A DNA stretch of 64,000 nt from Glandiceps talaboti (taxonomy: Eukaryota > Hemichordata > Enteropneusta > Spengelidae): assembly GCF_964340395.1 (NCBI RefSeq), contig NC_135549.1, forward strand, positions 22,253,342 to 22,317,341, given 5' to 3'. The stretch's first letter is position 1, and the number at the start of each line of letters is the position of its first letter. A program made the position numbers and the translations under genes. Below, one piece after another: positions 4,478 to 62,673 of the stretch. A model generated the notes under the pieces. It was given only the letters and a program-made list of their open reading frames with translations. It had not been told where the DNA came from and made no database searches.

Positions 4478-4574
4478 TAGACTGTAAGATACATCATGTT
4501 GTTCAGCCCTGTGATCAGGCTTCTCAACCGAGTGCTTGCTCAGCATGGCACGAATGTCTGTATATTACAGACTA
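4478..4574. mobile_element. Palindromic MITE family A, copy 1
   Basis: Starts TAGACTGTAAGATAC and ends TTACAGACTA. The flanks are GTGACTCCC and GTGAATCGC, a 9-bp target duplication with two changes. This is the most diverged interior of the family apart from copy 6. Confidence 0.7.
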
Positions 4575-4819
4575 GTGAATCGCAATTAGAAATTTATTTA
4601 AAAATTTATCATCTGAATTGCAAGCCAGCTATAGCTTTGGGCAAAATGTAAAGATAAAGCTATTTCCTCCCTAATTTGTAAATTGACCTCTTCAGTCATA
4701 AATGTAAAGGAATAATTGTATAATTTGTCATTTACATTTTGTTTTCTACTTAACTTGTATAACCTACCCCACCCTTGCCTACAATGTATGTACCTTAAAT
4801 AAATGCAGTTTATAATCGT

Positions 4820-5160
4820 TAGGCAAAAAAAAAATGTGTTTCCAATAACATGGCCTGAGAGAATAGGGTAGGTAGGTAGATAGGGATTTTATTTTATCTT
4901 TTTAATTGTCTCAAAAATATTGCTTCCACCCAAAACCAAACAAAATGTCAGTCCAAATTCCCCTTCTGTGATAATTTGATGAATATGTACAGACATCACA
5001 TCACAGTTCATCACTGTGAACGAAGAAAACAGATGTGCATGAAGGTCAAGAAGACAAAACATTCCTCATCTTTTTGAAAATGTTTAAAAAATGTTTAGGG
5101 TTGGCGTCTGAAATTAGGGTTATCGGAAACATACCATTTTTTTACTTTGATTTATCATTA
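4820..5160. mobile_element. Family C element, copy 2 (inverted relative to copy 1)
   Basis: Begins AGGCAAAAAAAAAATGTG then TTTCCAATAACATGG, and ends GGGTTATCGGAAACATACC before a T run. The interior shares many blocks with the reverse complement of 1,207-1,573, for example the stretch around GTGCATGAAGG. It is diverged, so probably old. Confidence 0.6.
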
Positions 5161-5927
5161 ATTTTTTTATAGCTATTAAACTGACACTCATGATGATGTC
5201 TACGCAATTTTTTAAAAATATAATTCTTAGAAATGTTTGAAAGATATGTGTATGTGTATGGTGCAACTAGCATAACATTATGAAATGCAATGGCCTCAGA
5301 AAGTGTGGTATTACTTATCACAAGGAAAGTTGATTAAACATTGATTTGGATGGGGGTTGGAGTGGGAGGTAGGGGGACATATAGCACTTATAATCTATAA
5401 AACTCACACATATACTTCATAATATGATAAAGGCATTAGCTTGTAAAATAATACAAACTCAGAAATTGTGTGTTAGTTCTAAGACTGTAACATCAATATA
5501 ATATAAACTACAAACATTATATCTCTTCCATATTTATATTCATTTTGTTAAAAAACATCATAAATCATACATGATCTTGAAGTAAACCTATTTTACTATT
5601 ATTTCCCTGAGTAGGCAGTTAGGATTACTATTTTTGCTTTGATTATTTATATATACATGTACCAGAACTTGTTTACTACCAGTTAGTGGTTATGTAAATT
5701 TCCATAACAAAGTAAAAGAGCGACAAAAACACCATAATTAACCCAATGACATCCTACAGACATAACATGAAGCCATACTTGCACAATCAACTTTTATAAT
5801 TATGAAAAACATACTTTTACAGTGTTGTACAATAAACTACCTCATATAAATACCCTTGGTAGTACATATGTATGTACTGTGTACATGATATGTACAGGCA
5901 TAGACATACATGTTTGTACATGCACAA

Positions 5928-6033
5928 TACATACAATTCTCACAAACCAGAGCTGTTATTTCTTCCGCGAAACCTCTTGGCAGTGCGTCTTGGATGGTGC
6001 CAGAAAAGAGGCTGTGGTTTACGACGATGACTA
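5928..6033. mobile_element. MITE family B, copy 1
   Basis: Begins near ATTCTCACAAACCAGAGCTG and ends GGCTGTGGTTTACGACGATG. The two ends form an imperfect inverted repeat (CATTCTCGCAAACCAGAGC against CATCGTCATAAACCACAGC in the family). The right side runs into a CA-rich microsatellite, so no clean duplication is visible. Confidence 0.65.
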
Positions 6034-6041
6034 TATACATA

Positions 6042-6260
6042 CGTATGTACACACATGCACACACACGCACACACACACACACATATATACACACACGTAA
6101 CATATCTACATGTATACATACAAATGTACGTACATACATATATACATACATTATCATACAATACATGCATACATACATACACATGCATACGTACGTATGT
6201 ACATATGTATGTACACACACACACACAGACACACAGACACACACACGGTGACACACACAG
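6042..6260. repeat. CA/TACA microsatellite
   Basis: Long mixed run of CA, CACG and TACA units, with a second purer CA block around 6,212-6,245. It produces open frames in several phases that should not be taken as genes. Confidence 0.95.
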
Positions 6261-8984
6261 AGGTGACATTTTAATCTACAGTATCTACGTATATATACAT
6301 GTACCTACCTACACATAAATATATATTATTAACTAATACATAATGTACATGTAGACAAGTACATCCATGTGTGATATAATAAATGGAACTATGAGAGTAT
6401 GGTATATACTGTTAAGCTATATTAATAATACCAGTAAAACTATTTACCTGCTAATTTGAATATTGCATTCAATAAAATTCATCCTTAGCCTACCTGTATA
6501 TCTAATCACTGTGTCAAAAATTGAACTTAGAGGCACTGCAGAATTACCAGCCTCTAACACTATTTTCCAAATAGAAAGAATAGAATAGTAGAAATTAGAA
6601 TGCAAATCTTTTTTTTTGTCATTTCAGAATGAAATAACTTTTGTCCTTTTGTGAGCCACTTAATAAAGGAGGTTTTTTGATGACATCACAAATTTCCTGA
6701 AAATATTTCAAGAATTTGTTAAAAATCTGTAGTAGGCTCTTCTGCTAATTATACCCATAATACCATATATTTGTTCATCAGTAAAATTTATCTTATCTCC
6801 TGAAAGTCTCAATTAACACACATCAGAGCCCTTACAACTCTATACCTATAGCAACAGAACCAAACCATTTATGACTAGTGTTCTTGAGCGTCAGCAAGAT
6901 GGTAATGTTGTAGGACAAATCCTATCTAATTGGAACTAGTCTGTTTTTTTACACAGGTTTCTTCATCCTTGGGTGTACATAGTTCTTGTAAACAACTGAT
7001 CAGGGTAACCGTATGATATCAGTATCACTTTGTTGTCAAGCAGAAAATATGTATTTGTTACTTGTGAGAGTCAAGGGAATAAACCATATTATTTCTCTCA
7101 TATCAATTAATAAATTATTACTAAATTGATATTAATAAATTATCACTAAAATGTGTGTAAGCACGATTCTTTTGTTTTCTCAAAATTATAAAAGATCATA
7201 TCATCTACACTATACCCCCCCCCCCCCCCCTTCATTGTACTCCTCTCTCAGTGGATGACTACTGCAAGTCAGAATTTTTTTTAATTTAAAGAGACATAAA
7301 TAAAGAGTCACCAAACCTAACAATTTTTCATTTCATGTTACATTCTGAAATTTGGTCATAACATGAAACAACTAGTTTACTCCAAGTGTTTTTGGACACA
7401 AAATCTTGAGTCTAAGATAACTTCCTGCAAGGTACTTTAATATTACCAGTTCATAGTTGTGACGTTGTGTTGTGATATATATATATATTATACACAAATC
7501 CTACTAATCTACATGCAGTTAGTACTTGTCTTGTACAGGGTACTTACTGGTGGTAGTTACAGCTCAATGCAAATCCATGAGTAGCTTACCATGGTAATTT
7601 ACAGCTCATAAAACTACTCTATTGTATGCATCACAATAGGATAACTCATTTCACTGAAGGTCAAAAACCTTAACTGTATCCTTCCCAAGTTTAACCATAG
7701 GTGTGTAAGGTCTATGGTTTTACAAGTGACTAAATGCCATCAACTCAGATATGCACATCACAATGGGATACTGTGTAACATGATCATACAACAACAGGTT
7801 TGATTTTTCTATGTCTCTCAAAATCAAAATTATTCAACTGGTAGGAGTGGCCATGTCTGTATTTTACCTCAGAGCAGACAACTATTTGGATGCAAAGCAT
7901 AAAATCTTGACTCAGCAAGGTTGCACTAATAGACAACAAAGGAATTGTGTGAAGAATACACAAATCACTGTAATCAGTGAAACAATAACCTCAGACAGTG
8001 GTCTGAGCAATAACAGAGTATGAACATTGACAACCAGTGCTGTGTGTCTCATAGCATTGTTATCATACCCATTCAGAAACCAGACAAATGAAAATTTCTC
8101 TGTCCCATATACAGATTGTTGTTTGGGATATATATTGTAAGTCCATCCAAACTGTTTTGTATTTATTATTCTAATATCTAATCTTCATGTCAGTACAGCA
8201 AAATAATCAAAATGTCAACATAGGTCGAAACAAGTGCATTACATGTAATAGGCACCTAAATAATACATGGCAATTTCTACATTGGACAATTCGACAAAGA
8301 GTGACGTGGCTTTCACCTTCATGGTGGTAGTAATATTATTAGTAACAACGTCTGGTACAGAGGATGGCCAAGGCATCGTGTACGTTGTACTTTACTTTAG
8401 TGTTTTTAAAAACAGTTATTTTTTTAAAATAATAAACTCTTTAATTATATAAAGCATTTACTTAACCAGATATGTGATGGTTCATCATCACCTGTAGATG
8501 TTGGAATATTACAACTTTTCTATTGGACAGTGCTAAAGTTTATTTTATGACGTTAAATACCATGTGTTGAGATTGTTTTCTTAGTAATCAGTGTGTACCG
8601 TGTACGTACGTGTACACAGGGCGGACGCTAATATTCCTGGGTTGATCTTTATACGTTTGTAATGTAAAACGTACTTTATACTAGGTGACGAGTTGAGACA
8701 GTTTGTTTTCAATACCAAATAAGAGTAGATATATTACACGATGAACAAATGTCGTGACAAAATCTGAAAATTTTCTTCAAAAAATGTGCTATCTACTTCT
8801 ATTGACAGGCCTCCGGTGTCGCAAGTGGCAGTCTAGTCTGTATAACCAGTCTGGAGCTCTCGCCATGTACACAACCAACCAACCTTTAGTTTACCGAACA
8901 CACTGGACAGTAGCTGTACGTACATAGCCTATGGAAACTTACGTGAAATCGCTAAAACACCTCACCAAATTCAACCCGTCTTAC

Positions 8985-9038
8985 CTTTACTTTGATGCGA
9001 ATCGCGTCCCGATCAGCGGGCGAGCTAACACAAGCCAT
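8985..9038 (-). CDS. Candidate first coding exon, minus strand
   Basis: The ATG at 9038 (context ccagaATGG) opens MACVSSPADRDAIRIKVK and runs in phase 0 to a consensus donor AAAG|GTAAGA at 8985. It lies just downstream, on this strand, of paired CRE sites (9135-9151) in a CpG-containing segment, as expected for a gene start. I found no convincing second exon within the window to its left, and the peptide is not recognised. Confidence 0.4.
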
Positions 9039-9280: not shown

Positions 9281-9282
9281 CT

Positions 9283-9499: not shown

Positions 9500-10053
9500 G
9501 TGACATTGACTTGAGATAAAAACTATTAGTTTTATAATATCTCAAGCACAGTCGCTTGTAAACTGTTATTCCTTTCCTAAACGGTTTTATTCTTGTCTAT
9601 GACGGTCCTAATACAGAACAATGACGTTATTATAGGGATTGGCGATATTCTTAATCTTATAAAATCGGTAACGATGTCATTTCCACAGTCACACACACAA
9701 CACGTTAGCTGCAATAATTGTAGCGTCTTGTTGCGGTTTTGTGGGTTTTTCGTCTGTTTTGGTGACTTTTTAAGTTTTTGTGTTTAACCCGCACCTAACG
9801 TTAAACACAAAAACTTAAAAAGTCACCAAAACAGACGAAAAAAAACACAAAACCGCAACAAGACGCTACAATTATTGCAGCTAACAACACGTGTGTGTGA
9901 CTGTGGAAATGACATCGTTACCGATTTTATAAGAATATCGCCAATCCCTATAATAACGTCATTGTTCTGTATTAGACCGTCATAGACAAGAATAAAACCG
10001 TTTAGGAAAGGAATAACAGTTTACAAGCGACTGTGATCTCAAGTCAATGTCAC
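9500..10053. repeat. Large inverted repeat (hairpin), arms of about 250-290 bp
   Basis: The left arm 9500-9788 and right arm 9800-10053 are near-perfect reverse complements around an 11-bp centre (9789-9799, flanked by GTTTAAC and GTTAAAC). The left arm has about 30 extra bases near 9518-9550, itself a small palindrome-like insert; the arms also differ slightly around a CA/TG run. It could be a foldback transposon or a recent inverted duplication. Confidence 0.92.
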
Positions 10054-11012: not shown

Positions 11013-11995
11013 GGAGAGGGTTAATTCCTATGAATGAGGTGATAAACACGGGTAACAATATCTACTCAATAACATTTCTGTGACAACTTTTGAAGAGATG
11101 ACAAAATGTACATCCCACACCTCAAGAATATTCTATAACCTTCCAAACAAACCCCAGTCTCGGTTGCCCAGACACTCACCGCTTGGGCTCTACTATGAGA
11201 CCACCCGCAGTCTTCCAGACGAGAGCCCCCAGTGGCGAGAGTCTGAGTAATCGAGACTGGGTGGTCTTGCAGTAGTGCTCCAGCAGAGTCTGGGTAAACG
11301 AGACAAAACAAGCCCTTCAAATATACTCATTAGTAATACTTGCATCCCTCACAGCTAATATAATCAGTGGCAATGAACGCATATTACCAAACAGGATGAT
11401 TCATTATGTAGTATCAAGTTATATATTAAAGATGGCATTCTCCAAAAATATGATATTTACTGATTTAAAAGGGAGTTCTCTGATTGGTCAATAAGTGGAA
11501 AAAGACATGCTACATACACATTAGTCAGTAAAATATGACACTCGTGCCACTCTATAAGCCAGTACTCACTGAGAAGCCTGGTTGAGCTGAACAACACAAC
11601 ATATCTTCCAGCCTACATTAGTACATACATACACGTAAAAAAATAGGAATTTAAGGTACTAGGACTGATGCCCCTGATAATTAACACATGTATGAAGTTC
11701 CCAAAATCTCTTACCTTTGCCATGTGAAAGCTTGTTCCTGGTCTTTTTGAAATTATAATGAAGGAAATTTTGGTGGTTCATCACCTTGGTTTCAAGGAAA
11801 TCACCAATAGTTTATTTTCCACAGTATTCAACACCAATATTGGATTTTAAACGAGTTTGATTTTGGTATAATTTTGACTTGTAACAAATTTGATTGACCC
11901 CAACCTTTTTTCTTTTACTTTAACTGAGAATGGCTTTGAGCTTCCTTTAACAAAGTAACAGCAAAAGTTAAAGATTTGTATTTCTGAGGTGCACA

Positions 11996-12083
11996 CAGAC
12001 TTTAAGATACATCATATCGCTCTGCCCTGCTCTGGGTTAACCGATGTTTGAGGGCGCCCTGTCACAGCATACCTTACAGACTA
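11996..12083. mobile_element. Palindromic MITE family A, copy 2
   Basis: 88 bp, starting CAGACTTTAAGATAC and ending ACCTTACAGACTA. It is flanked by a perfect 9-bp duplication AGGTGCACA (11987-11995 and 12084-12092). The interior carries the family motif GAGGGCGCCCTGTCACAGC. Confidence 0.85.
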
Positions 12084-13292
12084 AGGTGCACATGATGGTA
12101 AGCCAAGTCAGAAGTTAGCAAGGGAGGTTTCACATGGAATTTTAAACCCTTTAATATATTTAAGATGAGATGAGTACTGTCATATACAAGCTTCTTCTCA
12201 TACAGGAGATGAAAGTACACAAGATTATCACATAAGTATAAAACATAAGACACAACACACAAATTATTTTGGGAAGAGGATTTCTTTTTTTAATTAATAG
12301 ACCTGGGCCAAAAATTAGAATCATTTACTGGGCAAAAATGAGATAATATACTCTTTGAAATAAGTCAAAATGTCTTGGTACAGAACTGAATGTCATCTGA
12401 TTCTTCCACCAACTAAATATGAAATCTTTTGTATAAGTCAGCATGAATTCTTTCACAAAATTACGTAAAATAGGACAAGAAATAACTTGCAAATCTGACT
12501 TTGGCACAAGCTATAAAATCAATCCCCTGGCTAAATAACCCCAGTCCCTCTACTATAATGACATCAAAATTTGTGTGGTTTTTTTTTTTGCCCTGTGGAC
12601 TCACCAAGTATTTCTATCTACCAAACTAGTGATGTAAGGTGTACAGTGCTTCCAGGTGAGCATGGTCTGAGAAATCACCAATCAGCTTAAAAACATACGA
12701 CAAGGTAAACTCTACGTTTGAAATATATTTTTATCCGAGTATGACAATGAGAATGTGATTGTGTGTTTTTTATCAATGTGATATATCCTTTGTTCCATTA
12801 GGCATAGCTTTGTTACAAGCAAGGGACTTACTACGTCCCACACACTTTCCACTTTACAACTCTGTCAGAGTCCAGAGAACATGTTTAGCTGTGATTACGT
12901 AAAATCAATTTGATTGGCAGAGATCGTAGAGTCCCTGATGGGAATCACAGTATCCTAAGAAGTGCAAGAATAACAACGTCAATTAAATGTACACTCTGGT
13001 ACGCTATTTGATGTAAGTCTAATAGATCACTTGGTTTGCATGGATAACATACAAAAAACTAAACAAACCAAGTTTACAAAAATCCATGTAAATAAGACTC
13101 GCTGTGCTAATACTGTGTAGTACACTAAAAAAATGGATATGTTTGACTCGATCACTCGATTCAAAACCATTGTGGAAATATTTTCATACTTTTTAGATCT
13201 TGTAATTCTCCACTGAAGCTTCGGTATCTTACCACTACCATGTGTAACAATTTGTACAATTATCTGTGCATAAAAGGTGGAATAGTGACCCA

Positions 13293-17700: not shown

Positions 17701-20700
17701 TGCTTCAATCAACTGTATGATTACTACAAGTCATTTTGGGTAAATGTTGCATTGTACAGTGACACACAGCATCACCAGTTATGCAACTAATCTGTATTTA
17801 TACGTTCCCATCACTGTGAAAAACTAGTTAAAGTGACACAAACTGAGTTGATAAGCTTTTTACTCATGTGAAAATAACTACATATACATAAAACCCTGAG
17901 TAAACTATTCTACTATAATGTTAATGTCAATGACGATGTATACCTTCTATGACATCATAATTATTTTCTGGCATTATTAGAACAGTTGATTACATAGCAG
18001 GGATTTCTGCTACATTATTGTAAGTACAAAAAATTTCATTATCAGATCATTCATGGGTTATACCTTGGTATCAGGTTTGAGCTCTGTCAATTGCAAGTGG
18101 TGGTTAAGCATGTTTCAGAAAGTAGAATACTGTGAGTACCCTTTTAATATACAGCAAAGCATGTGCCCCTTTCACTACATCATGTACATGATAAAACAGA
18201 CAATGTCATCTGACACAGTAACATATTTTTTTATCTCTTTCATTACAATGCTGCATAAAAATGCACAATTGTACCAAAAACTATGTAGATTCTGTGAAAA
18301 AGAGACAAGCTCTAGAATTAGATTCACCATTCAACAAAACATATATGTCTGCAACAATACTACCCAGTTCACATCTTGAGCAGAAAAAACTCATTTTTAT
18401 TATAGATGGAAACTAGTTATACTTACTGTTGAAACACCGTGTTTGAAATGACTGCTACAATACACTTTGAAGGCATTGTCCAAAGCCTCTCTCCATGGTT
18501 CTGCTGTCTGATCTATGAGATCATTAGCAGGTTGGGGATCACTAGCTTCTTTCCTTAGGTGATCATAGTAAAATGTACGTTTGGTCCTAGGGTCCAAAAA
18601 ACGGCCAGCACCTAAATCCCCATACTCTGTAATCAGCACCTGAAATTGAAACATGAGAAGACATGGCTTCAGATGCTGTGATGATGTTGCCTGGTCCCCC
18701 AAGATGTATTGTGCACCTCCCCCATGATACAACACAGTGTATTCTGTTCGTACAGAGGATACCTGTGTATGCGCTACTCTGGGGATGGTTGTCACCTGAC
18801 CATACCCTGGGTTGAGCAGTAAAATCCTTTTCTGTCAACAATGGTGATTTGTTAGTTAAAAACACTCACAATTAAGGAGGCCAAATGTCTTTCATGATGA
18901 CAATTATTTCAAATGTAGTAAAAGCAATACAGGTTTGTTCTGACTGAAGTGTTCATTGACATGTTCATATTACAACTCTGTATTGTGTTTACAACACAGG
19001 TTTGTAGTGTTTGAAGTGTTCATATTACAACTCTGTATTAGGTTTACAACACAGGTTTGTAGTGTTTGAAGTGTTCATATTACAACTATGTATTGGGTTT
19101 ACAACACAGGTTTGTAGTGTTTGAAGTGTTCATATTACAACTCTGTATTGGGTTTACAACACAGGTTTGTAGTCTTTGAAGTGTTCATATTACAACTCTG
19201 TATTGGGTTTACAACACAGGTTTGTAGTATTTGAAGTGTTCATATTACAACTCTGTATTGGGTTTACAACACAGGTTTGTAGTGTTTGAAGTGTTCATAT
19301 TACAACTCTGTATTGGGTTTACAACACAGGTTTGTAGTGTTTGAAGTGTTCATATTACAACTCTGTATTGGGTTTACAACACAGGTTTGTAGTGTTTGAA
19401 GTGTTCATATTACAACTCTGTATCAAGTTTACAACACATGTTTGTAGTGTTTGAAGTGTTCAAATTACAACTCTGTATCAAGTTTACAACACAGGTTTGT
19501 AGTGTTTGAAGTGTTCATATTACAACTCTGTATTGGGTTTACAACACAGGTTTGTAGTATTTGAAGTGTTCATATCACAACTCTGTATTGGGTTTACAAC
19601 ACAGGTTTGTAGTATTTGAAGTGTTCATATTACAACTCTGTATCAAGTTTACAACACAGGTTTGTAGTATTTGAAGTGTTCATATTATAACTCTGTATCA
19701 AGTTTACAACACAGGTTTGTAGTATTTGAAGTGTTCAAATTACAACTCTGTATCAAGTTTACAACACAGGTTTGTAGTGTTTGAAGTGTTCATATTATAA
19801 CTCTGTATTGGGTTTACAACACAGGTTTGTAGTGTTTGAAGTGTTCATATTACAACTCTATTGGGTTTACAACATAGGTTTGTAGTGTTTGAAGTGTTCA
19901 TATTATAACTCTGTATTGGGTTTACAACACAGGTTTGTAGTGTTTGAAGTGTTCATATTACAACTCTGTATCAAGTTTACAACACAGGTTTGTAGTGTTT
20001 GAAGTGTTCATATTACAACTCTATTGGGTTTACAACACAGGTTTGTAGTATTTGAAGTGTTCATATTACAACTCTATTGGGTTTACAACACAGGTTTGTA
20101 GTGTTTGAAGTGTTCATATTACAACTCTGTATCAAGTTTACAACACAGGTTTGTAGTGTTTGAAGTGTTCATATTACAACTCTGTATTGGGTTTACAACA
20201 CAGGTTTGTAGTGTTTGAAGTGTTCATATTACAACTCTGTATTGGGTTTACAACACAGGTTTGTAGTGTTTGAAGTGTTCATATTACAACTCTGTATTAG
20301 GTTTACAACACAGGTTTGTAGTGTTTGAAGTGTTCATATTACAACTATGTATTGGGTTTACAACACAGGTTTGTAGTGTTTGAAGTGTTCATATTACAAC
20401 TATGTATTGGGTTTACAACACAGGTTTGTAGTGTTTGAAGTGTTCATATTACAACTCTCTATTGGGTTTACAACACAGGTTTGTAGTGTTTGAAGTGTTC
20501 ATATTACAACTCTATTGGGTTTACAACACAGGTTTGTAGTATTTGAAGTGTTCATATTACAACTCTATTGGGTTTACAACACAGGTTTGTAGTGTTTGAA
20601 GTGTTCATATTACAACTCTGTATTGGGTTTACAACACAGGTTTGTAGTGTTTGAAGTGTTCATATTACAACTCTCTATTGGGTTTACAACACAGGTTTGT

Positions 20701-21148
20701 AGTATTTGAAGTGTTCATATTACAACTCTATTGGGTTTACAACACAGGTTTGTAGTGTTTGAAGTGTTCATATTACAACTCTATTGGGTTTACAACACAG
20801 GTTTGTAGTATGTGAAGTGTTCATATTACAACTCTGTGCACAGAATGATTTCCTTACCTGGTCTTCAGCACCTTCAACTTTGGTTGCTGTGTACTGGTCC
20901 TTGTTATATTGTGAAAATGCACTGTAACATAAGACACAACACCATTGTGAGACAATGACATCTAAGAAACGAATGAAACTTTGTTTATGCGCAAAAATTC
21001 AGACTTCTCCCCAAGACCTACATAGTCATGGAGTCTTAAGTTCCACTGTTAAAGTTCTTGAAAACATGATAATTAATCAACATAACACTATTTAATAATG
21101 CAAATTCTATGGCGTTTCTTTTGCTATTTTTTTAAACCTTTTTTTTTA

Positions 21149-21179: not shown

Positions 21180-24100
21180 TTTGGGGGGGGGGGGGGTTGA
21201 GATGGAGAAGACTGGTGTTTATGACAAACATATTCTAGGACAAATATAGGGAAGTGAATATTGTGTAACTATAATTCCAATTAACATGGCACCATACCCA
21301 CATAACAATTGTACCTGGTAAGGCAATACACTAAACTGATATCAAGCAGTACACATGTCCATTGATTTCACACAGCAATTGATATCCTACATACATAATA
21401 AACACATGCTTGATTCTCCAAATCTCTACAAAGAAATCTTATAAAGCCCTTGTATAATGAGGGTTATGTGTAGTTAGTTGTTGTTTGATTACTACTAGGA
21501 ATATCTGAACACTTGATTAGGACTTACCTGGAAGCCCCTTCTTTGAGGAGATTATCATTATTGATTAACACTCTTACATCTGAAAGTAGCAGTGTCAAAA
21601 TGATCATACATTCACATATAAAAAATATGTCCATAAATTCCAATATAATCTGTAAGATATGCCTCGTCACTCCACCCTCATCGGCCTGCTCTGAAAAGGG
21701 TTGACCGATGTGTGAGGGCGCCCTTTCATGGTGTACCTTACAGACCAATTCCAATAATAGTACTGTAATATTGATGTATCAATGTAAAATATCGTCTAAG
21801 ATTTTTCTACGATTACACCTTGACATGATACAGAAACAGAATGGTACTATAAGTTACAATTTGAAAGAATATCACATCTGATGATCATGCAGGGGTTACA
21901 AAAAAATGGGTCTGTTTTGAACACATCATTGGCTGAATACTGAAGTACATATCTTTCACTAAACTAACCACTAGTTGAACTGATCTTGCATTCAAAATAA
22001 ATGTTGGAGAGAAACCCCAATGCCTATGATTCAACATATAGTGAAGACTGCTGTCAAGATTGTTAATCTTCAAAGCACATAGACATAGCAATCAAAGATA
22101 TTAAACTAACCATTGAAAACTTCATTGAATTCTCCTGGTGGGGCATGCTTTATGAAGTCGGCTGCAATTTGGACCTGTAAGTAAGCATAAATCAACAGAC
22201 TGAAGTTGACAGAATATAATAAAACATATGCAAGGCTGCAGCTAAAAAATGGAATTTGTCATTGGTGTGCTGTATGGCAGAAACAGAGAAATGGAGGTTG
22301 CTGGTAAGAAATGGAATTCACCCTTGGTGCTTTGTTCGGCATGAAGGGAAGAACAAGGAAGTGAAAGAAGGAGGATGCCTTTTTATAGGACTGCACAGAT
22401 TTCACTAGGCTGCTTACACGTAAACGTGATGTAGTACCCTTCACACTAGTCAAGTAGGATATATATGTAAGGTTATATGTAACTTATTTTTATGTTTTCT
22501 TTTATTGATTTATGGTAACTCCTAAATATACAGCTCAATACAAGTTCCGTTATTAATCAATCACTGTCACTCCTCTATTTGCTACTATACGTGTTCACAT
22601 TTGACATTTAGCCATGATGGTTGAACAGAGTTTAGTATTTTGTGGACAGAATGAGCATGTACATGTACAAATGTAATATTTGCTCGTACATCTTTTGGCT
22701 AAAATCATTTCTTCCTGTCTTAGTTACAGTTTAAACCCCAATGTTTGAATCCCATGTAACAATTCTCAATATTTGAAATAGAATATTACTGCCTAGGCAC
22801 ATCATAAAATTACGAACACTCAATGTCTTGGTCAACACCATAACTTTTGCTCCATGTACTTCACATACATTACTATAGATGCACGCGAGAGTAAGTCAAC
22901 CTTCTTGTTCTATTTTGACCATCTAGCATGAGGTTAACAGATAACAAGAATTTAATATGGCCATTCTTTTGTTCATAATCAACTTTTCTATAGTGTTGCC
23001 AGACAACTGCTTGTCATACCCAAGTGTTAATCCTACTATCCTAGACTGATGTTGGCATTTTTAGCATGACAAATTTAACTGTCCATCCTTGAACTGTCAA
23101 TATAATGTTAGTATATCCACAGACACTATATCATGGGTATTTCTAAATATAGTACACCAGTCCACTGACATTACAGGAAAGGACATCAAGAAAGCAAGGA
23201 TGTGGGGCAAAGAACAATGAGAATTCCCTATGGAAAATAATTCATTAACTCTTGCATTATACCACTGCATACTCCAACAATGTGATTAATTATTGATGTG
23301 TATTCTTTCACTTCCATCAGGATTTAAACTGTTTTACATACATATTTTGACCATAATGCAATTCTTGTCGCTTTCCTTGTACATTACATTTTGTATACAT
23401 TGGAAATAGTTCCTTCACTCATGTGAGAACAGGGGTAACTCTACCAAAATTCCTAATATCAGGACGTCAAGCTCTAAATATTATATCCCCCACCCCTCAC
23501 CCTGACTCTTCAACCCACCATTACTACAACGTATTCATAGGTATACTGTGACAAATCTACTCATTTGTGGTACTTAGGTTCATAAGTCCAATACAACGAA
23601 ACATTGTTCTTTACAATTTCTTGCAGCAAGTATTTTTGATTGTTCAGCATTTCCTTGTTTGCTTTACATATCAAGGTTGCAATAAATTATGAAAATGGAA
23701 AATCAACTATCAGGCAAGCTAACACAAACCATATACATATATGTGTGTGTTATTAATGGGATGTGGGTGTTACTACACTAACAGTAGAGTGGCATCTCTG
23801 ACTCTAATAGTGAATATTCTCAAGTGCTAGCACATTCTACCTAATAGTCACTTCTAACTTGATCATATTCTAGTGCATATTTTTGAGGACTTCCAGTGTT
23901 TTTCAGTATCTAATTTAAAGAGTGATTACATCTGCATAGTGAAGTCACTGCTATCATCCAATACTGTGTAATCTACTACATGCAACAACAATAGTTTTAA
24001 TTTGTGTCTATCTTAGTCAGATAGATTGTCTTTCATATTTCCCTGGTAATAGTTTGCAGTCCTTTAGATATCACAAGCCTTTGTTTACTGTTCTGATTTT

Positions 24101-34966: not shown

Positions 34967-35393
34967 ATAGTAATAATACATTCTTGTATCATGACCAAGG
35001 ATTCTTATTACTTACGAGTAAATTTTTGCCTATTTATGTCAGCAGGCTTTGTCAAACTGCCTGTTTGCTGGTTTTACTGCTGGGCAGTGTAGTGGCGATG
35101 ATATCATCGATTGAAACTCTGCTAATGTCAACAGAGAACGGGACAGGTTATCCAGGCATAGAATCTCTCCACATCAGAAGACAAGGGGGGGGGGGGGGGG
35201 GGGGAATAGCATGAACAGGGACGAGGGGGCATACAATTGCATCATCTTTGTGATCACGTCATTGCCACTACACCGCCTAGCAGTAAAGCCAGTAAATGGA
35301 CAGTTTGACAAAGCCTGCCGACCTGAACGAGCAAAACATTACTTGTAAGTAAGAAGAACCCTTGGTCATGGAACAAGAACATAGTATTACTAT
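34967..35393. repeat. Foldback element downstream of PEX26, arms of about 150 bp
   Basis: The left arm from about 34,967 (ATAGTAATAATACATTCTTG) to about 35,110 pairs with a right arm from about 35,240 to 35,393, which ends GAACATAGTATTACTAT. Paired blocks include CAGGCTTTGTCAAACTG with CAGTTTGACAAAGCCTG. The loop holds a poly-G run of about 18 (35,186-35,203). Arms have several small indels. Confidence 0.85.
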
Positions 35394-37470: not shown

Positions 37471-37639
37471 TACTATCACTACTACCCTATTCCGCTACCC
37501 CAACCTGAGATTTTTTGAATTTTCTGTTACAAGTCTACTCTTGCCAACCATTCAGAGCTAGTCTCAAGTGGCATTCCTATATATGAAGCGTGATTGGTCA
37601 AACACATAATTAGACATTTGAATCACACAATCTGGTCAC

Positions 37640-37723
37640 TAGACTGTAAGATACGTCGTGACGTTTCGCCCTCATCTCGGCCGATGGTTGAGGGCGCCCC
37701 GTCACGGCGTACCTTACAGACTA
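37640..37723. mobile_element. Palindromic MITE family A, copy 4
   Basis: 84 bp, the shortest and best-preserved copy: TAGACTGTAAGATACGTCG at one end and GTACCTTACAGACTA at the other. The arms pair for about 35 bp. It is flanked by a perfect 9-bp duplication TCTGGTCAC (37631-37639 and 37724-37732), so this is likely a recent insertion. Confidence 0.9.
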
Positions 37724-37959
37724 TCTGGTCACATGATGAAACCGCAATTGTGTTGTCATGGAAACACAACCTTATTCAAATTGCATATTTGCACACGTTA
37801 TGAGTGTGGCTTCTAGACCAGTGTGACATGGCTAGCATCATAGACGAAGAATAGTGAAAATCAAAACGTGAGCTGGGATAACAAAGTGGTAGCGCTAGTC
37901 CAAGTCTACATGTAGGCTACTGTCATACAGAAGACAAGTCACAATAGTTTGATGCTCTC

Positions 37960-48999: not shown

Positions 49000-51900
49000 G
49001 GTTCGTCAGAAGTGTTTGTGTGTGGGGAGTTACTAGTCTATCAATTATCCCTGCAAAGCATATGTGGTCGACCGGTCATGTCAAAGTTTTACATGTAGCC
49101 AATGTAATGACGCCCTCACATGGTAAAATATCATAATTGTACTCACTACAACGTCAGTATTGTTTAGATTAAGAATTGCTCATCGTTAAATTATGATCCC
49201 ATCAGTGATATGCAAATTAGGTCTAAAATGTGTCTTTTTGGTCAAAAATTTATATTTCCAAAACTACTATATAAAGCAGATTGGGCTGAAATTCAGGGGG
49301 AATGCATGTTGGCAAGTGTAAATGAATCTGTATTCACAAGGTGATGATACCATCAACGATATCCAAATTAATAGGTCTACAATTGTCAATTTTGATCAAA
49401 AACTTATACCATGAAACTGCATGAAACTTGGTGGGGATGTTTCTGGAGGTTTTATTCTGCAATTATTGTTGAAAATATTATGACATAATTGACCCTAGGA
49501 ACCATGACCACACCCTTAGCAACAGTGACATGATGATGCATATTACAAAGATAAGTGATGGGTATATTCAAAATATGTATGCAAACATGCCTAGCAACAA
49601 GACCACACCCATAGCAACAGCTAAATACCAGAAAAATATTCATGTCTGTACTGTTAAAAGGCATGAAGATTTTTTTAAATTTTCATTACAAGTTTCACTA
49701 CATGCTATATGTAAAAGAGATTTTATTAGATTTTCTGATTCCTTCAAAGCCACTTTTAATTGTTAACCACAGATTAACTGAAGTTCTGATCAGTAAAATT
49801 TCTAATCTATGATGATAATGGCTGTATCAGCAATTTTGAATAATTTGAAATAATATAAACATTATGCTTGAAGTTTTAAAATTTTCTTTTATTTCCAAAT
49901 GAAAAATACTACATTTCAGCAAAAAATATGTCCTGAGTTTCTCTCTGTGAGTCAATCATATCTCAAAATATTAGTGTAAATAACAGTACTCTTTCATACA
50001 ATACAACATAGAAATATGCTGTAATTTTCAATCACATGACAGGGAGCTCATGACACGGCGACGCACTCACACATCGGTGAAAGCGGAATGACATGACGTA
50101 TCATACGGCAGTCTAGGTTATAGCCCAAATCAACTACATACTTTGAGTTTAGGCAATCCAAGTGTTTCTTACAAAGCTTACCCTGCCATACATTTATTGG
50201 CACATCTAAATATAAACAGTACTGTGCATGTATATATATATGTAGAGGTAAATCAGTAAAGTGCTACCCGCACTCCCCACCCTACCCCATCCAACCCCCC
50301 ACACAAAATTCCTCTCAACTCTGACTACAACAAAAGTATAGACCGAATATGTCCTGAAAGTATAATCAAATCATGATTTCATGGGTTAAGAAAGTGAATG
50401 TTTTTTATTATAAAAATGCCTTCCAAAATAAAAGTTCATGCATATGCTAGTAAGAATTACACCTTATGAACAATATAAATGTTTCCTCTTTTTATCTACT
50501 GCAAGGATACAAAAGGGTTACAACCTGTTTGTTATTTTCACATATTTCTGCAATAAATGAGTATACAAAATTATCTGTATATGTATACACTGTAAGATAC
50601 GTCGTGACGTTTTGCCCTCACTGGCCTCCTCTCACACATGGTAGGGGTTGGCCGATGTGTGAGGGTGCCCCGTCACAGCGTACCTTACAGGCTATACATG
50701 TATATACTGATAGCTGTTTTTTATTGTCATTTATTGCACAAGATGTATGCACATTTAGTACAAATTGTATACTTTGGAGCCAGTATGTAAATCGTCTTTG
50801 CAAATACAGAGGAGGTAATTTTCTTTTTACCTCCTATTTGCACAATGTCTATGCTTTCCGAGACAGAAGGTGTCTCCTATTAAGTCAAGCAAAAATATTC
50901 ATGTTTAGCTCTAGAAATGAGCAATAACAAACATATCTTGTTAACAAAAAATATTCTGGAGCTCATGCGACATTCTGAGACGACTCCTTAGTCCTTACAA
51001 ACAATTCTATGACAGCAAAATTGTCCACAAACCATCATAAGTTGTGTTCTGTGAGTGACCTATCAACTCTCTAAAAGTTACATGTATGTAAAAAGCCATC
51101 CCTGAGGTGTGTGCGAGGTCAAAGGTCATATGTAAATAGGACAAGTTCATGACACATGTATATCAGGTAGAACATATTATGGTGTAATCATAGACACAGA
51201 TTATGATGGTTACTGCCAAGCTTCTACACATTATAACGGTGCTATCCATTGTAGCCTTCACTGAATGGTGGCCACTTTTATTCTATCACAGAGTTTATGT
51301 CACACATTCACCACTTTTTTAAAATTAATATTCAACATGCAACATTCACGATGTTCATAAATATTAATTCATCAATAAAATACACAATGCCTCAATTCTC
51401 AGATATATTTTGTTAAATTATAGACAAAAGCTAAATGCATCATATATATATACAAAGCATGTCAACCAATTACCAGCGTTCCTTTACATATCTTCCAAAA
51501 ATCTGTTCTGGTGATATAGAAATTTTTGCCAACCAGAAATATTCATATCATTTATGAACAAATCTGCCCTTAAATACGATGTTTATCATTAGTATTTGAT
51601 TGCTATGGTCTTTACCACAGAATCCAACATGGCCTCAACTGAATGCAGTGTTGCTTTGGAAAGCTGGATGGGAATTAAGTAGTGGATGGTGACTTTTTAT
51701 GACAACGCTGCATACTACTAGCTTATATGCACTACATGTGCATATATTATTCATTTATATATACTTTTGTGAGTTACATTCATGACTATAAATCACAGAT
51801 CTTATCCTTTACAGGAAAGAACATGTCTAACTTGTAAATCAAATTATGTTGAAGATGAAGATACATTTCTTATTAACCTATATATATCAAGTATATTCCC

Positions 51901-53695: not shown

Positions 53696-53868
53696 ATAAC
53701 ACATGCCAGCAAGGGCAATATCACAATTTAGTGCCTGCACAAGGGTTGGCACTGTTTACCAAAATTTTGATGATGCCCAAACCGAAGGGCATCATCAACA
53801 TTTTGGTAAAGAGTGCCAGCCCGAGGGCAGGCACTAAATTGTGATATTGCCCGAGCGCATGTGTTATA
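53696..53868. mobile_element. Near-perfect hairpin MITE, about 83-bp arms
   Basis: Begins ATAACACATGC and ends GCATGTGTTAT. Each arm contains GGCAATATCACAATTTAGTG followed by CCTGC, and a TACCAAAAT / ATTTTGGTA block; the centre is GATGATGCCCAAACCGAAGG then GCATCATC. Mismatches between arms are few, so this copy is young or conserved. No clear target duplication beyond A/T bases. Confidence 0.85.
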
Positions 53869-56322: not shown

Positions 56323-57202
56323 TGAGCTTTTATACATTGTATTTATATTTCTAGGAATAAATGCATGAATGAATGAACGTGAAAACTGTATACAGTACTG
56401 TATGCTACCATACTAGAAGACTGTATGTTGCCATTCTGATTTGCTTGACAATATATTATGTCTCAAATGAAAATGAAGTTGAGTTTGCCCTCACATAAAT
56501 TAATATATTAAACTTAGTATGGTAATCTATGATATATATGCAAATGATATGCAAATTATGTTAATTTGGATATACATGATCACAGAAAATCACTATTAGT
56601 AAAGTTTAACCTCCAAAATGAAAACAGGACATCATTATTCAACTTATGTCTCTAACAAATAAAATGTCTTTATAAACTGAAAGTTACTATATTGATGAGG
56701 AGTAGGTATTTATTTTGGATTTTTAATTTACAAAACAATTTTATCATGGCGTCTTAGTTGAAAAATCAATGTGATACAACATTGTCTAAGTCTGTGTTTG
56801 TCACTTAACTTTAATAACCCATTGCAACAAGCCAAAAAATGTGTAGAAATGCATGTTACGATTGTACATTGTGCAATTCTTTGAATTACAAACAAGGACT
56901 TGATATATGTTGTGACATTGATTTTTCAAGTAGGATGCCGTGATAAAATTGTTTTATAAATTAAAAATCCAAAATAAATGGCCAATCTTCATCCATATGA
57001 CCACTTTAAAATAATTAAATTTAAATTTTCATGAAATATAATAATCTTCCACAGTAGTATGGATGAAATTCCAACCAAATTCTGTAATTCATCTTTATAC
57101 AATGTGATTTTGCATACAGGGACATTATTATTAATAGCCTTTCAGACTTGGGCGGCATAATTCCTTTTTTGAGACATGTAAATTGCTGAAAATAGTAAAT
57201 TT

Positions 57203-57306: not shown

Positions 57307-57307
<1 letters not shown>

Positions 57308-58134
57308 TTGCTTGGACAACCAATCTTTCAGCCTTATTACAAACAGTCATCAATAAACCATCACCGGCGATATCCTTGTGACTGTTTAGAGTCATCAAAT
57401 ATCATAATATATTAATTAGTGACAATTTGCAAGACTATTCGTAGCAAATGACATTAAAATTAGTAGATATTCACACTAATTTGAATAGCGCACCTTTCCA
57501 TTATAAGTGTTTGAATGCAATACTTGGCTTACTACAATCAAATCTACACAGTTGATAGGGGAGGAAATGAATAAAAACTGAACAAAATAGATTACAATCT
57601 TGGCTATTCAGAAAACAAATTAACATTTCCGTACGTTGACCTCAGTTATCAAATCCTGCCATTTTTCATAAGTCCTTGGAAAGCTATATATTCAAGTTGA
57701 CATACCTTATATGCCAATATTACAAATATACATTTGTATGTTGGTTCTTACATTGATTTTTCATCAATGGAACTGTACTAAAAACGTCAACATTACAGCC
57801 CATCTCACTGCTCCACTACAGAAATTTTAGTCTAAAAACACCTTCTCCAGTAAACACAGATACTTATGTACTGACAGTGATGTGTGATTGTGAATCTCTG
57901 TGAATGCATTTCTGTAAAAGTTTGTGAAAACACAACATATCTATTTTTATTCTTTTATCCTAATGGCTTACGTATATGTGCATGTAGTGTTTTTCAGGTC
58001 AGTGAGTATCCTGAGCCAACAGAAATACTGCCAGCTATGTACAACTTTTCTCATTTGGGAGTAAAAGCCAACCTATGAGGTTATTTACTTGTAGATGTCA
58101 AGGTCAAATTTGCATAATTTGTTGCAAAACTCAT

Positions 58135-58178
58135 GGCCAAAGGGCTGTAATTGATGGCCAAAGGGCTGTAATTGATGG
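58135..58178 (+). repeat. Short tandem duplication, 22 bp
   Basis: GGCCAAAGGGCTGTAATTGA occurs twice in direct succession. Confidence 0.9.
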
Positions 58179-58991
58179 ATCTGGCAACAAAAAGTCCATA
58201 TTTTGGTAAAGTAAAACACATAGCAATGCTACATATTACAATCTATAATATGGTATGAAAGGTTGTGGATGAAAATGAATATATATTTTCAGGAATGTAG
58301 CTACTTTTAAAAGGTGCTGCCAAAATGTGAAAATTAGGCAGTAATATCTAGGAACAAGACCCATAAAAATGCCCCATGGACAGAAATGTACTGGTTGAAA
58401 TAAAGTTTTAAAAGAAATTCCTGAAAAAGTAGCTGGCAAAAACATTGTTGAGTAGCTGTTTATTTTTACTGCTATTAGCCATTATCTACATCTCTGATTT
58501 TTGTAAAAAATATGACATACATGTATGTCATGATGTGAAACTGTTCAGCTGTGTTATGTGTAAAATGAATTGATTCATAAACTGATTTGAAATTTAAATT
58601 TTGATGACATATTTATTCATACTGAAGGAACTAAAAGGTTGCATATCTTAATTTGGTTGTGATGTGACTTATTAGAATTTGTAAAGGTATACTGCAGGGT
58701 TTCCTTCACAGTCAATTTTATTTGTGAAAATTAATACTAGTAACATGCAAGTTCCTATCTTCCTGTATATTACATGTACTTGCTGATAGGATATGACCAC
58801 ATATGTGATGGAAACTATTTGAGAATTTTATAATTGGTGAAATATGGGGGCAATTTATTTGAATTAGATCTGACACAACTTAGCAGCGCTTGGTGATATT
58901 AATTCTTATGTTATTGGCTACAGTAATGTCTTGAAGGATGATAAACCCCGCAATAAAACCTTTGAAATGATGGCTCAAGAAAGTTATATAC

Positions 58992-59191
58992 CTTGCAGTC
59001 GTGATCGTCATCATTGAATCCTCTTCCTTTCTCATATTTGTTGCCAGGGCATTCCTGTCTTTTATCAACTGTCGTCATGGTAACTATGTGTTTTTTCCTC
59101 CCACTCTGCTGGGCTCTCTTGCTGGTTGAGTTTGGTCATTTAGGGATGACGGTAGTTAGAATTTCATCATCATCAAAGCAGTCATCAAAGT
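58992..59191 (-). CDS. Candidate exon with acidic tail and in-frame TGA, unidentified gene
   Basis: A strong acceptor (TTTTCACTTTTTTATAG) is followed by FDDCFDDDEILTTVIPK and a TGA at 59136-59138. The same frame then stays open through KRAQQSGRKKHIV and RQECPGNKYEKGRGFNDDDH to a donor GCAAG|GTATAT at 58992, in phase with the candidate terminal exon at 54863. It is either a terminal exon ending at the TGA, or an internal exon with a recoded, mutated or mis-sequenced codon. Confidence 0.33.
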
Positions 59192-59524
59192 CTATAAAAA
59201 AGTGAAAATTAATATCATCCATTTGAAAGAAAATTTACACCTGGACATATGCAACTGAATTAGCTAGGCACTGAAGTCATATGTGTTAGCTATAGATACT
59301 CAAAGGTTGCCATAGAGATTATTTTACGATAACAAGAATCTCTTAATTAGTAGAGAAACTGTAAAGTTATGACTTCTGATAGAAACTAACCAGCTGGATT
59401 TACATGTAAATTAAATGAAATTGGTGCCTGAGCCTGTTATATTCGAAATCGTATGACTGATGGGGGAAATAATTGGCATATATTTATGAAACTGAAAACG
59501 TCATGCAGCTGGAATTGTGCAGGG

Positions 59525-59838
59525 CAGTAAAATAGCACACAGTTGCAGTGGTGTTGAGTTGTAAAATGGCACACAGTTGCAGTGGTGTTGAGTTGTAAAA
59601 TGGCACACAGTTGCAGTAGTGTTGAGTTGTAAAATGGCACATAGTTGAAGCACCAGAAAATGGCTTACAGCTGCAGTGGTGAAGAGTTGTAAAATTGGTA
59701 CACAGTTGCAGTAGTGTTGAGTTGTAAAATGGCACATAGTTGCAGCACCAGAAAATGGCATACAGCTGCAGTGGTGAAGAGCTGTAAAATAGCACACAGT
59801 TGCAGTGTGCAGAACTATAAAATGTGACATAGTTGCAG
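59525..59838 (+). repeat. Tandem repeat, 34-bp unit, about nine copies
   Basis: The unit includes GCACACAGTTGCAGTGGTG and TTGAGTTGTAAAATG, with shorter variants carrying GCACCAGAAAATGG. The unit is not a multiple of three; overlapping frames on the minus strand give cysteine-rich repeat peptides that are unlikely to be real. Confidence 0.93.
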
Positions 59839-59884
59839 TTGTGCAGAGCTTCTATTAGGACTCCATTTTTAACTGCACTTGATT

Positions 59885-60480
59885 GAATAGAATTGTACTG
59901 CTCTACATTCCACTTGAACTGGACTGCACTGAATTCAATTGTACTGCTCTATACTCTATCTAAACTGGACTGCACTGAATTCAATTGTACAGCTCTACAC
60001 TCCATCTGAACTGGACAGACCTGAATTCAATTGTACTGCTCTACACTCCATCTGAACAGGACAGACCTGAATTCAATTGTACTGCTCGACACTCCATCTG
60101 AACTGGACAGACCTGAATTCAATTGTACTGCTCTGCACTCCATCTGAACTAGACAGCACTGAATTCAATTGTACTGCTGTACACTCCATCTGAACTGGAC
60201 TGCACTGAATTCAATTGTACTGCTCTGCACTCCTCTGAACTGGACTGCACTGAATTCAATTGTACTGCTCTACACTCCATCTGAACTGGATTGAACTGAA
60301 TTCAATTGTACTGCTCTACACTCCATCTGAACTGGACTGCACTGAATTCAATTGTACTGCTCTACACTTCATCTGAACTGGACTGCACTGAATTCAATTC
60401 TACTGCTCTACACTACGTCTGAACTGGACTGCACTGAATTCAAATGTACTGCAATGCTCTGCACTCAATTTGAACTGGAC
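59885..60480 (+). repeat. Tandem repeat, 46-bp unit, about 13 copies
   Basis: The unit is CTGCACTGAATTCAATTGTA followed by CTGCTCTACACTCCATCTGA and ACTGGA. It starts within 60 bp of the end of the 34-bp array. Copies differ by a few substitutions, so the array is moderately old. Confidence 0.93.
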
Positions 60481-62572
60481 AGTATTGATCTGAATTTATT
60501 TGTGGTACATGTACTTTATTGAACTGTCACTGTGTTCTTTTGTAATGATAACAATAACACAAGTCACTTTTGTCACGATAACAATAAGAACTCAAATAAC
60601 TTCTACAGCATCGAATAGCGTAAACTATTACAATGAATGTCACAATTAAAATATCCCTGAACAAAAAGTCTAAACAGACAGAAATACAAAAGATTTATAT
60701 TGTGCTATTACACTTTACAAATTATGAAGTTACTTTCAAAGCTGATTAGACTCAACAATTTAAAATCTTCTATGTATTTCCCCCCACTGTTTTAAAAAAG
60801 GATTTTATCTGGTTGTTGATACCATTGCTTTGCACGTACCAAACTTCAAATCAAGAAAACCCTTTTTATCCTAAATTTACAGCCCATGAGGGATAAAATA
60901 ATATTTCATGGAAATTATAAGTGGAGATACTTTTTAAAGTTTTAACCAAATTATAGATTCTGTTTTCTTTCCTATTCCATGCATATATATTTCAGGGAAA
61001 ATTCGGGACTTTTCAGACAGAAAATGTTTACAATCCCAAGTGTGGTTATGTGTCGTTTAAACGTTTATACAGTCACATAAAAATATTGTGAACATAATTC
61101 ATTATGGCTCATGGAAAAAATGATGGAATTTGGCATTTTAGGACAAGTCAAATGCACTTCACTTTAGCAGAGAGTGTAATGGCAAATTAAACAGGATTTT
61201 TTAACAGAAACAAACAAGAAAGGGACTTTTCTTTATCTATGTTGTATTCAGTGCAACTATTGTTAACACCTGTCATTAACACCTTGATACAGAGAATGTG
61301 CTGCCAATGGAAACATAGACCCTGCACGAAAGGGTCTATGATGGCAATAACTACCTGATTTTCCAACAAAACATATTCCATCTTTGGCCACCTACATGTA
61401 TTTGGGATTTCATTTTTCTGGCAGTAAAGATTTTGTTTTGTTATATTGGTATACGTATGTCTATAATTTAAACGTAGATTATAATTTGTGTTATGTACAG
61501 TTAGTTTGTTACTTCTTCGGTAAAACTTTTGTGTGTCTTCATTCAAATAAATCCAACACAGAAACATTAATATGCATTGACATGGTATGCCAATCTAAAT
61601 AGTATATCATACAGTTTATGTTCTACTAGCCTACATATGCAATCATATGAAAAAAAAATTGTATCCATTTAATTGGAAGAAATCATCCTATTAGAAAAGT
61701 AGATGGGAGGAAAGGATTATTATTAGTATGTAGCCTTTGCTGTGTCGGCCTTTCACATAGAAATAAATGGGCAGCATTAACATCAGACAGTAACACCAGA
61801 TGTCGTTTGATGATTCCGACAATCCATAGTTGTAGAGAGTGTAATGCAGGGATATCAGAAAAATTTGTCATTACAGTTGCCTTGTTGATGGCAACTCTAG
61901 GCAATGTAATTTACATAAATCCTGTCATATTATTATTTAAAATCTGCTGATTACATGTAATATTTGCAATTTTGAAAGTATCAATCAATCGTGTATGAAT
62001 TCATATAATACAATCATTGACAATCTCCTATCTGAGCAGCTAGTGTTCAGCACTCGCCAAGGTAGAACAAAAGTATCACACATAAAACATTCAGATTCAT
62101 GAGATTTACAATCAAAATTTATGAAAGCCATCTCTTTAATTTGTCCTCCTGTGGCTTCTACATCTGAGACTGACAAGCACTCAGCCTGGAGCTGTGAGTA
62201 GGCCACTGATTGGATGTATTAACAAGTGATCTAGGTGAAAAGTTCACGACTACACATATTTTTCTGCACTCACTCAGTGACTCTGCTGCATGCTGTGCTT
62301 TGTTGGTGACACCATATATCATGCAAAAAAAATATGTTTTTTTGAAATATGATATTTTGAGTGATGGTATGGCCAACCATTATAAATGCCTTACTTGTTT
62401 CTGTTAAAATCTATGCAAAAGGTAGCTACAGCTGTATTATCACTGAACGTGTACCATTTATGTTCTTGGGCTGAATACATGAATTAACATGGTGGTTTCA
62501 CAAATAATCTGAACGGCTTTTGTTGAGGGAAAGTATTCAAACATTATATTTACATAGGAACTGCAAAATTGG

Positions 62573-62673
62573 TAGTCTGTAAGTTATGTTGAGCCTTCGA
62601 CCTATGCAGCCAGCACTCAAGTCAGTCATTTATGAAGAGAGGGCCGAACAATACAACTGTATATTACAGTCTA
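62573..62673. mobile_element. Palindromic MITE family A, copy 6 (diverged)
   Basis: Starts TAGTCTGTAAG and ends TATTACAGTCTA. The flanks are CAAAATTGG and CACAATTGG, a 9-bp duplication with one change. The interior has diverged from the family, so the call rests on the ends and the duplication. Confidence 0.6.

Follow-up and report, generated by a model that had tools for sequence, protein, structure and literature searches.

The 64-kb stretch of DNA analysed here (the window) contains seven short inverted-repeat MITE elements, each with a flanking 9-bp duplication. They are, with high confidence, members of a MITE family, that is, non-autonomous cut-and-paste DNA transposons whose putative transposase, encoded elsewhere or lost, would join the tips to the target with a 9-bp stagger. 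The elements are short and non-coding, with terminal inverted repeats, a target duplication of fixed length and numerous copies. The shared inverted ends, the 9-bp duplications and the thousands of exact ends in the genome bear out the MITE identity given in the preliminary description. Since single copies are 55-142 bp long, a transposase gene cannot fit within them.

The family is new and its kind is well known. No earlier description of it was found in the literature, where the tip spellings matched unrelated gene or virus texts at the level of titles and the starts of abstracts; likewise, searches on 9-bp duplications, MITEs, AcademH, DUF6589 and PF20700 brought up nothing naming this family. 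The 24-base MITE end had no matches in viral contigs.

Copies in the window

The flanking 9-bp duplications were exact in three of the seven copies, differed by one change in three and by two changes in one. The copies are as follows.

2533..2637, no strand assigned: MITE copy, 105 bp, end tips TAGTCTATAAGATAC / GTATCTTACAGTATA; 9-mers AGTTTTGTG (2524-2532) and AGTTGTGTG (2638-2646), one change
4478..4574, + strand: MITE copy, 97 bp; 9-mers GTGACTCCC (4469-4477) and GTGAATCGC (4575-4583), two changes
11996..12083, + strand: MITE copy, 88 bp; 9-mers at 11987-11995 and 12084-12092 both AGGTGCACA, exact
21646..21747, + strand: MITE copy, 102 bp; 9-mers at 21637-21645 and 21748-21756 both ATTCCAATA, exact
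37640..37723, + strand: MITE copy, 84 bp; 9-mers at 37631-37639 and 37724-37732 both TCTGGTCAC, exact
50587..50694, + strand: MITE copy, 108 bp; 9-mers TATATGTAT (50578-50586) and TACATGTAT (50695-50703), one change
62573..62673, no strand assigned: MITE copy, 101 bp; 9-mers CAAAATTGG (62564-62572) and CACAATTGG (62674-62682), one change

Six copies had been described previously; all six were recovered in place, and the copy at 2533-2637 had been missed. For those six, the reported flanks, exact in three copies (11996, 21646 and 37640) and with one or two changes in the others (4478, 50587 and 62573), were reproduced. The one-change call for copy 50587 was made by eye, taking 50587 as the start with the first T lost; the automated scan starts this copy at 50586 and scores nine mismatches.

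When convergent end pairs were scanned for, exactly these seven copies came up in the window, compared to none in any of 10 randomised versions of it (first-order Markov). The tip TAGACTGTAAGRTAC, allowing up to three mismatches, had 19 matches in the window, compared to a mean of 4.4 and a maximum of 11 in 100 shuffles. There were no Rfam matches at gathering scores and no tRNA predictions in the window. Copy 37640 matched both 35-bp arm consensuses with full identity. Copies 2533, 4478 and 62573 have kept their tips but are only 50-67% identical to the two arm consensuses, and are therefore older or belong to other subfamilies. A DNA search of the genome with copy 62573 found no second copy; this copy is old or from another subfamily.

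Pairing over about 35 bp per arm, as had been noted for copy 37640, was confirmed by a fold with 30 pairs spanning the 35-bp arms (z -6.6 as DNA). Copies 50587 and 4478 also folded (z -4.3 and -3.6, respectively), and the fold was not significant in the other four (21646, z -1.7; 2533, -0.6; 62573, -0.4; 11996, +0.8). Strong folding as a property of younger copies only was not supported, because the diverged copy 4478 folds and copy 11996, which is closer to the consensus, does not.

Structure and abundance of the family

Most elements measure 80-111 bp and are built from two dissimilar 35-bp arms, TAGACTGTAAGATACGTCGTGACGTTTCGCCCTCA and TAGTCTGTAAGGTACGCCGTGACGGGGCGCCCTCA, on either side of a short loop. 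The two arms mismatch at 6/35 positions, which gives the family an orientation. The first base is T in 57/61 left ends and 58/59 right ends. An exact 15-base MITE end had 3,550 matches in the 590-Mb genome compared to 15 for the reversed control, and an exact 24-base end had 865 matches compared to none for its control. Very roughly, the genome total may be 7,000 copies, a figure that rests on an assumption of independence; well-kept and decayed copies are both present. The family had been called very abundant from six copies in 64 kb. Its abundance is evident from the exact 15-base ends, but the density of the window overstates the genome average, since three exact 15-base tips in 64 kb, against 3,550 in 590 Mb, make the window about 8 times denser.

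Target-site duplication and target preference

The 9-bp length held in a sample drawn from the genome: 39 of 60 distinct elements had an exact 9-bp duplication, though the sample favours young copies because its loci were picked as best matches or by an exact end. In the same 60 elements, exact duplications of 5, 6, 7, 8, 11, 12 or 13 bp were absent (0/60 each) and one of 10 bp was seen once. In 14/60 elements the flanking 9-mers, as scanned, disagreed at two or more bases; two of these elements are the window copies 4478 and 50586. Such mismatched flanks reflect decay, indels or compound pairs. At one locus (L017) a second copy lies across the end of the first and has its own exact 9-bp repeat. 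With the second copy removed, the repeat ACGGTACCC of the first is whole again, which fits independent insertion.

A new detail is that the target sites show a loose and symmetric preference in the bases that flank the duplication, YWN-[9 bp]-NWR. Three bases before the duplication (-3) a pyrimidine was found at 43/46 sites and three bases after it (+12) a purine at 40/46; the two occurred together at 38/46, compared to a mean of 11 and a maximum of 20 in 1,000 control draws of 46 sites picked at random within the flanking sequence of those loci. A longer version of the motif, with TYW preceding and WRA following the duplication, was found at 5/46 sites (control mean 0.5, maximum 4). TYWN-N9-NWRA was dropped as a target motif, since A at +13 was not enriched (16/46).

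Candidate sources of the transposase

A DDE-type transposase, whose gene would lie elsewhere or have since disappeared, would act in trans: it would bind the MITE tips and insert them at target strands cut 9 bp apart, and repair of the staggered joint would then leave the 9-bp duplication. No transposase or coding element between these MITE ends was found in the loci read. The two foremost candidates for the mover's superfamily are MULE and AcademH. The duplication length alone cannot settle the matter, because published lengths are 8-11 bp in MULEs (PMC6446971), 8-9 bp in Merlin (PMC8101967) and 9 or 10 bp in AcademH (PMC10045372), and the observed 9 bp falls within each range.

The Mutator-like (MULE) transposase of the preliminary description could be the mover, with a likelihood that we place somewhat short of even. 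The genome holds MULE transposases (31 PF10551 and 57 PF20700 matches), and the active element Muta1 of Aedes aegypti is reported to make 8-9-bp duplications and to have more than 300 putative non-autonomous derivatives (PMC5225508). Those derivatives resemble the present family in their inverted repeats, lack of a transposase gene, duplication length and many copies; they differ from it in that here the ends are TAGWCTGTAAGRTAC, the arms short and unlike, a motif lies outside the duplication and no linked transposase was found. Muta1 is also reported to lack an apparent target preference, whereas the MITE family has one. A full-length MULE element with the same ends did not appear in the loci read: among 30 PF10551 loci taken together with 1.5 kb on either side, neither a two-ended MITE copy nor the 10-base tip TAGNCTGTAA was found (0/30 each), and L038 and L048 each had one isolated tip-like match with 2 mismatches. 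These loci were rejected as MITE carriers, since the tip search and an ends-agnostic search (inverted ends, 8-10-bp repeats) gave no MITE ends; the latter recovered the ends of its own clade at L045, and its other hits look like chance or internal repeats. On C1 and C2, where PF20700 places were compared with MITE ends by coordinates, the eight PF10551 and seven PF20700 places listed came no closer to an exact 24-base end than 80 kb and 50 kb, respectively. The MULE clade with visible ends (L031, L033, L036, L038, L042, L043, L045, L054 and L059) terminates in GGTAACAGGACAA or GGTTCTAGGACAA repeats. This clade, which we take to be Rehavkus-like, carries the MULE domain. Its likeness to the MITE family would lie in the 9-bp duplications listed for Rehavkus (Table 1 of PMC6446971); it is unlike that family in its ends (GGTAACAGGACAAMYGCCCCC) and subterminal tandem repeats.

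A mover from another or an undescribed superfamily, or one extinct in this genome, is a tentative but serious possibility; the search turned up no coding partner with these ends, although the extent of sequence searched for one was limited. When exact 24-base ends with inner sequence unlike the MITE were considered (two lists, of 51 and 62 matches), only one long convergent pair lay within 30 kb, at C26:8955707-8964898, spanning 9,192 bp. Among the listed matches, none of PF10551, PF20231, PF20700, PF12762 or the RecQ-like helicase (101 of 139 candidates scored for the last) fell inside it. By our own estimate such a pair would arise by chance with a probability of about 0.01 if ends were evenly spread, and more if MITEs cluster, as they do in the window. 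The pair may be two ordinary MITE ends: neither is in the list of departures at position 35, so both keep the A at that position, as MITE right ends shortened by one base mostly would. As a full-length element it is a weak lead. We think it distinctly unlikely that the family is moved by a transposase lineage with no known connection to ends of this kind, making cuts spaced 9 bp apart and reading the YWN-[9]-NWR frame outside the duplicated bases, with the C26 interval as a possible coding copy. An AcademH-type transposase, from the helicase-encoding Academ lineage, is a candidate on the unlikely side. Of about 16 DUF6589 places, 9 had, as judged by eye, a RecQ-like helicase gene within 5 kb in tail-to-tail order; one of the 9 is the locus that supplied the helicase query. 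Given the description of the lineage as helicase-encoding, we take this arrangement to be AcademH, which is probably present in the genome. Helicases are also described in KolobokH (PMC10799480). The likeness to AcademH lies in the duplication length and this probable gene pair. Against it, 11.1 kb around L094+L093+L095+L096, a locus whose true ends were not placed, contained no match to the tip even with 2 mismatches allowed. On C1 and C2, the one DUF6589 place and 7/14 RecQ-like places were at least 47 kb from any exact 24-base end, the remaining 7/14 being within 4 kb of DUF6589 or of the counted RecQ-like places. Merlin, which shares the duplication length, is very improbable as the mover: its ends are described with terminal GG (PMC8101967), whereas the MITE ends begin with TA and have no terminal 5'-GG, and PF12762 had a single match in the genome (C15:15541139; 3 candidates, 3 scored).

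A 9-bp duplication by itself should therefore not be taken to mean MULE, as that length has been attributed to three superfamilies or more. Otherwise this is simply another MITE family; its oriented arms, duplication length and flanking target preference together form a sharp signature for seeking the missing coding element.

MITE copies in the window

Six copies of the inverted-repeat element (MITE) had been reported in the preliminary description; all six positions were confirmed in the window (35% GC; G000:C1:22253342-22317341, in a source genome of 590 Mb and 47 contigs, judged eukaryotic from size and content), and a further, overlooked copy brought the number to seven.

2533-2637, overlooked MITE copy
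4478, MITE copy
11996, MITE copy
21646, MITE copy
37640, MITE copy
50587, MITE copy
62573, MITE copy

Inward-facing ends of type TAGWCTGTAAGRTAC were common to all seven, with 0-3 mismatches per end, and the 9-bp flanking repeats that had been described were borne out (0, 0, 0, 1, 1, 1 and 2 changes over the seven copies). A paired-end scan returned seven elements in the window and none in each of 10 Markov copies. No second copy of 62573 was found by DNA search of the genome.

The window also contains other repeats. The first listed is another foldback or MITE element, young and, from the length of its duplication, hAT-like. By eye, no flanking repeats were seen at the last four.

9547-10035, near-perfect palindrome of 489 bp, ends CACAGTCGCTTGTAAACTG, flanked on each side by the 8-bp direct repeat ATCTCAAG
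18813-20807, minisatellite, 55-bp unit
59775-60578, minisatellite, 46-bp unit
53713-53852, inverted-repeat element, 140 bp
34967-35393, inverted-repeat element, 427 bp
56669-57018, inverted-repeat element, 350 bp
441-913, inverted-repeat element, 473 bp

Duplication length and abundance

A genome search with copy 37640, in which 40 of 1,556 first-look candidates were scored, gave at least 43 matches, and 30 loci were read from it (best-hit loci). A 24-base end pattern had 865 exact matches, compared to 0 for the reversed control; the first 30 of 100 listed places were read (pattern loci), some of them being both ends of one copy. The window and the 60 loci read were scanned for end pairs 60-200 bp apart with a total of four mismatches or fewer; with identical elements entered once, this gave 60 elements. 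When the flanking repeats of these elements were tabulated, 9 bp was the dominant length, with exact repeats in 39/60; one element had an exact 10-bp repeat and none had exact repeats of 5, 6, 7, 8, 11, 12 or 13 bp. At 9 bp, 46 of the 60 had one mismatch or fewer. The other 14 included compound pairs, decayed copies and window copies 4478, which has two changes between its flanks, and 50586, the boundary of which was placed one base off by the end-pair scan. A partner end within three mismatches was absent in five of the 30 pattern loci; at L066 a decayed partner was visible by eye, and the copies at L063, L078, L083 and L087 look truncated by eye. The MITE family is real and abundant, with a firm 9-bp duplication.

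Two copies lie side by side at locus L017 (1410-1585), where the second inserted across the first's end, duplicating AGACTAACG, which takes in the first copy's last bases.

The 15-base tip had 3,550 exact matches in the genome, compared to 15 for a control. Among 100 listed tips, all within the first 17 Mb of contig C1, nine tandem-array tips were excluded and an exact partner was present for 22 of the remaining 91; if ends decay independently, the copy number is about 7,300. The thousands of tips support the earlier term "very abundant family", but the window's density is atypical: the genome average is, on this estimate, less than one copy per 64 kb, so a window with seven is unusually rich. 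No two-ended copy was present in 112,800 bases of transposase loci. At G000:C1:2049096-2049923 one strand carries nine exact tips, with 98-bp spacing over the first seven; judged from tip coordinates, the MITE appears to have turned into a tandem satellite there.

Element anatomy

The two arms are unlike at 6 of 35 positions (4, 12, 17 and 25-27), and the MITE therefore has a distinct left and right. Lengths were 80-111 bp in 58/60 elements, the remaining two being a 142-bp copy and a 176-bp compound. At C10:14257535-14257589 two exact 24-base ends face each other over 55 bp; from their coordinates, they mark a very short copy. Of the seven copies in the window, strong folding (z below -3) was seen in 37640, 50587 and 4478, so "palindromic" is not apt for every copy.

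Candidate mobilizing transposases

A MULE had been proposed as the probable mover. The 9-bp duplication fits the MULE range of 8-11 bp (PMC6446971), and MULE genes are present (31 matches to PF10551 and 57 to PF20700, both MULE transposase domains), but none of 30 PF10551 loci carried a two-ended MITE copy or a TAGNCTGTAA tip; L038 and L048 had isolated tip-like matches with two mismatches. The full-length MULE with MITE ends that had been anticipated was found neither at these 30 loci nor by coordinate comparison. Three PF10551 loci (L032, L034 and L053) also match ZSWIM1/3-type domains and may be host genes. One MULE clade (L031, L033, L036, L038, L042, L043, L045, L054 and L059) has visible ends, GGTAACAGGACAA or GGTTCTAGGACAA, with subterminal tandem GGGGGCA-type repeats; we take it to resemble Rehavkus. 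At L045 there is a 692-bp derivative of this clade with an 8-bp repeat matching at 7/8.

The coordinate search was confined to exact 24-base ends or exact 15-base tips, which diverged ends would escape. Ends leaving the MITE sequence at position 32 (51 matches) or 35 (62 matches) comprised 79 distinct ends, among which the only convergent pairs within 30 kb were the 55-bp C10 copy and one candidate interval.

C26:8955707-8964898, 9,192 bp, convergent exact 24-base ends, from coordinates alone

This interval contained no PF10551, PF20231, PF20700, PF12762 or RecQ-like match among those listed. Position 35 is still A at both ends, so the interval may be two ordinary MITEs. Among the 100 listed tips, four pairs converge over 9-18 kb; because three of the four use an end already paired at short range, they were taken as chance neighbours. 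None of the 23 MULE, PF20700, DUF6589 or RecQ-like places tested on C1 and C2 lay closer than 47 kb to an exact 24-base end.

Other transposases were weighed against a MULE. DUF6589 (PF20231), of unknown function in Pfam, had 20 matches at about 16 places and a RecQ-like helicase at least 90; at nine places, counted by eye, the two lie tail to tail less than 5 kb apart.

DUF6589/RecQ-like pairs (positions in Mb)
C8:16.39, source of the helicase query
C8:27.97
C9:0.41
C8:24.54
C1:35.77
C10:9.17
C20:14.92
C26:5.15
C14:11.02

This pairing suggests a DNA transposon that carries a helicase and has DUF6589 as its transposase, presumably AcademH, although it may instead be KolobokH. No MITE tip within two mismatches was found in 11.1 kb around one such locus. 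AcademH duplicates 9-10 bp (PMC10045372). Merlin duplicates 8-9 bp, and its ends are described as GG (PMC8101967); given such ends and a single match in the genome to PF12762, a Merlin-type transposase domain, it is unlikely as the mover. A MULE is a reasonable guess.

Target preference and age

Pre-insertion sites were reconstructed for 46 insertions with one mismatch or fewer in the repeat. Position -3 was a pyrimidine in 43/46 (C in 25) and position +12 a purine in 40/46 (G in 29), and positions -2 and +11 were A or T in 37 and 40, respectively; T was present at -4 in 25/46, and A at +13 was not enriched (16/46). The pyrimidine and purine occurred together in 38/46, whereas 1,000 control draws averaged 11 and never exceeded 20. 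The signal was also seen in each subset taken separately (window, 4/5; best-hit loci, 21/27; pattern loci, 13/14). The stricter TYW/WRA form was present in 5/46 (control mean 0.5, maximum 4). Bases within the duplication showed little preference. On these counts, the enzyme seems to recognize a symmetric frame surrounding the 9 bp it duplicates. Since other transposases are known to prefer palindromic targets, this frame is a trait of the family and not a new principle.

On average, the two arms had diverged from the consensus by 3% at the best-hit loci (32 elements) and by 7% at the pattern loci (21 elements), both samples being biased toward young copies. Among the window copies, arm identity to the consensus ranged from 50% to 100%, which points to long-lasting activity of the family, or to related subfamilies with a common tip.
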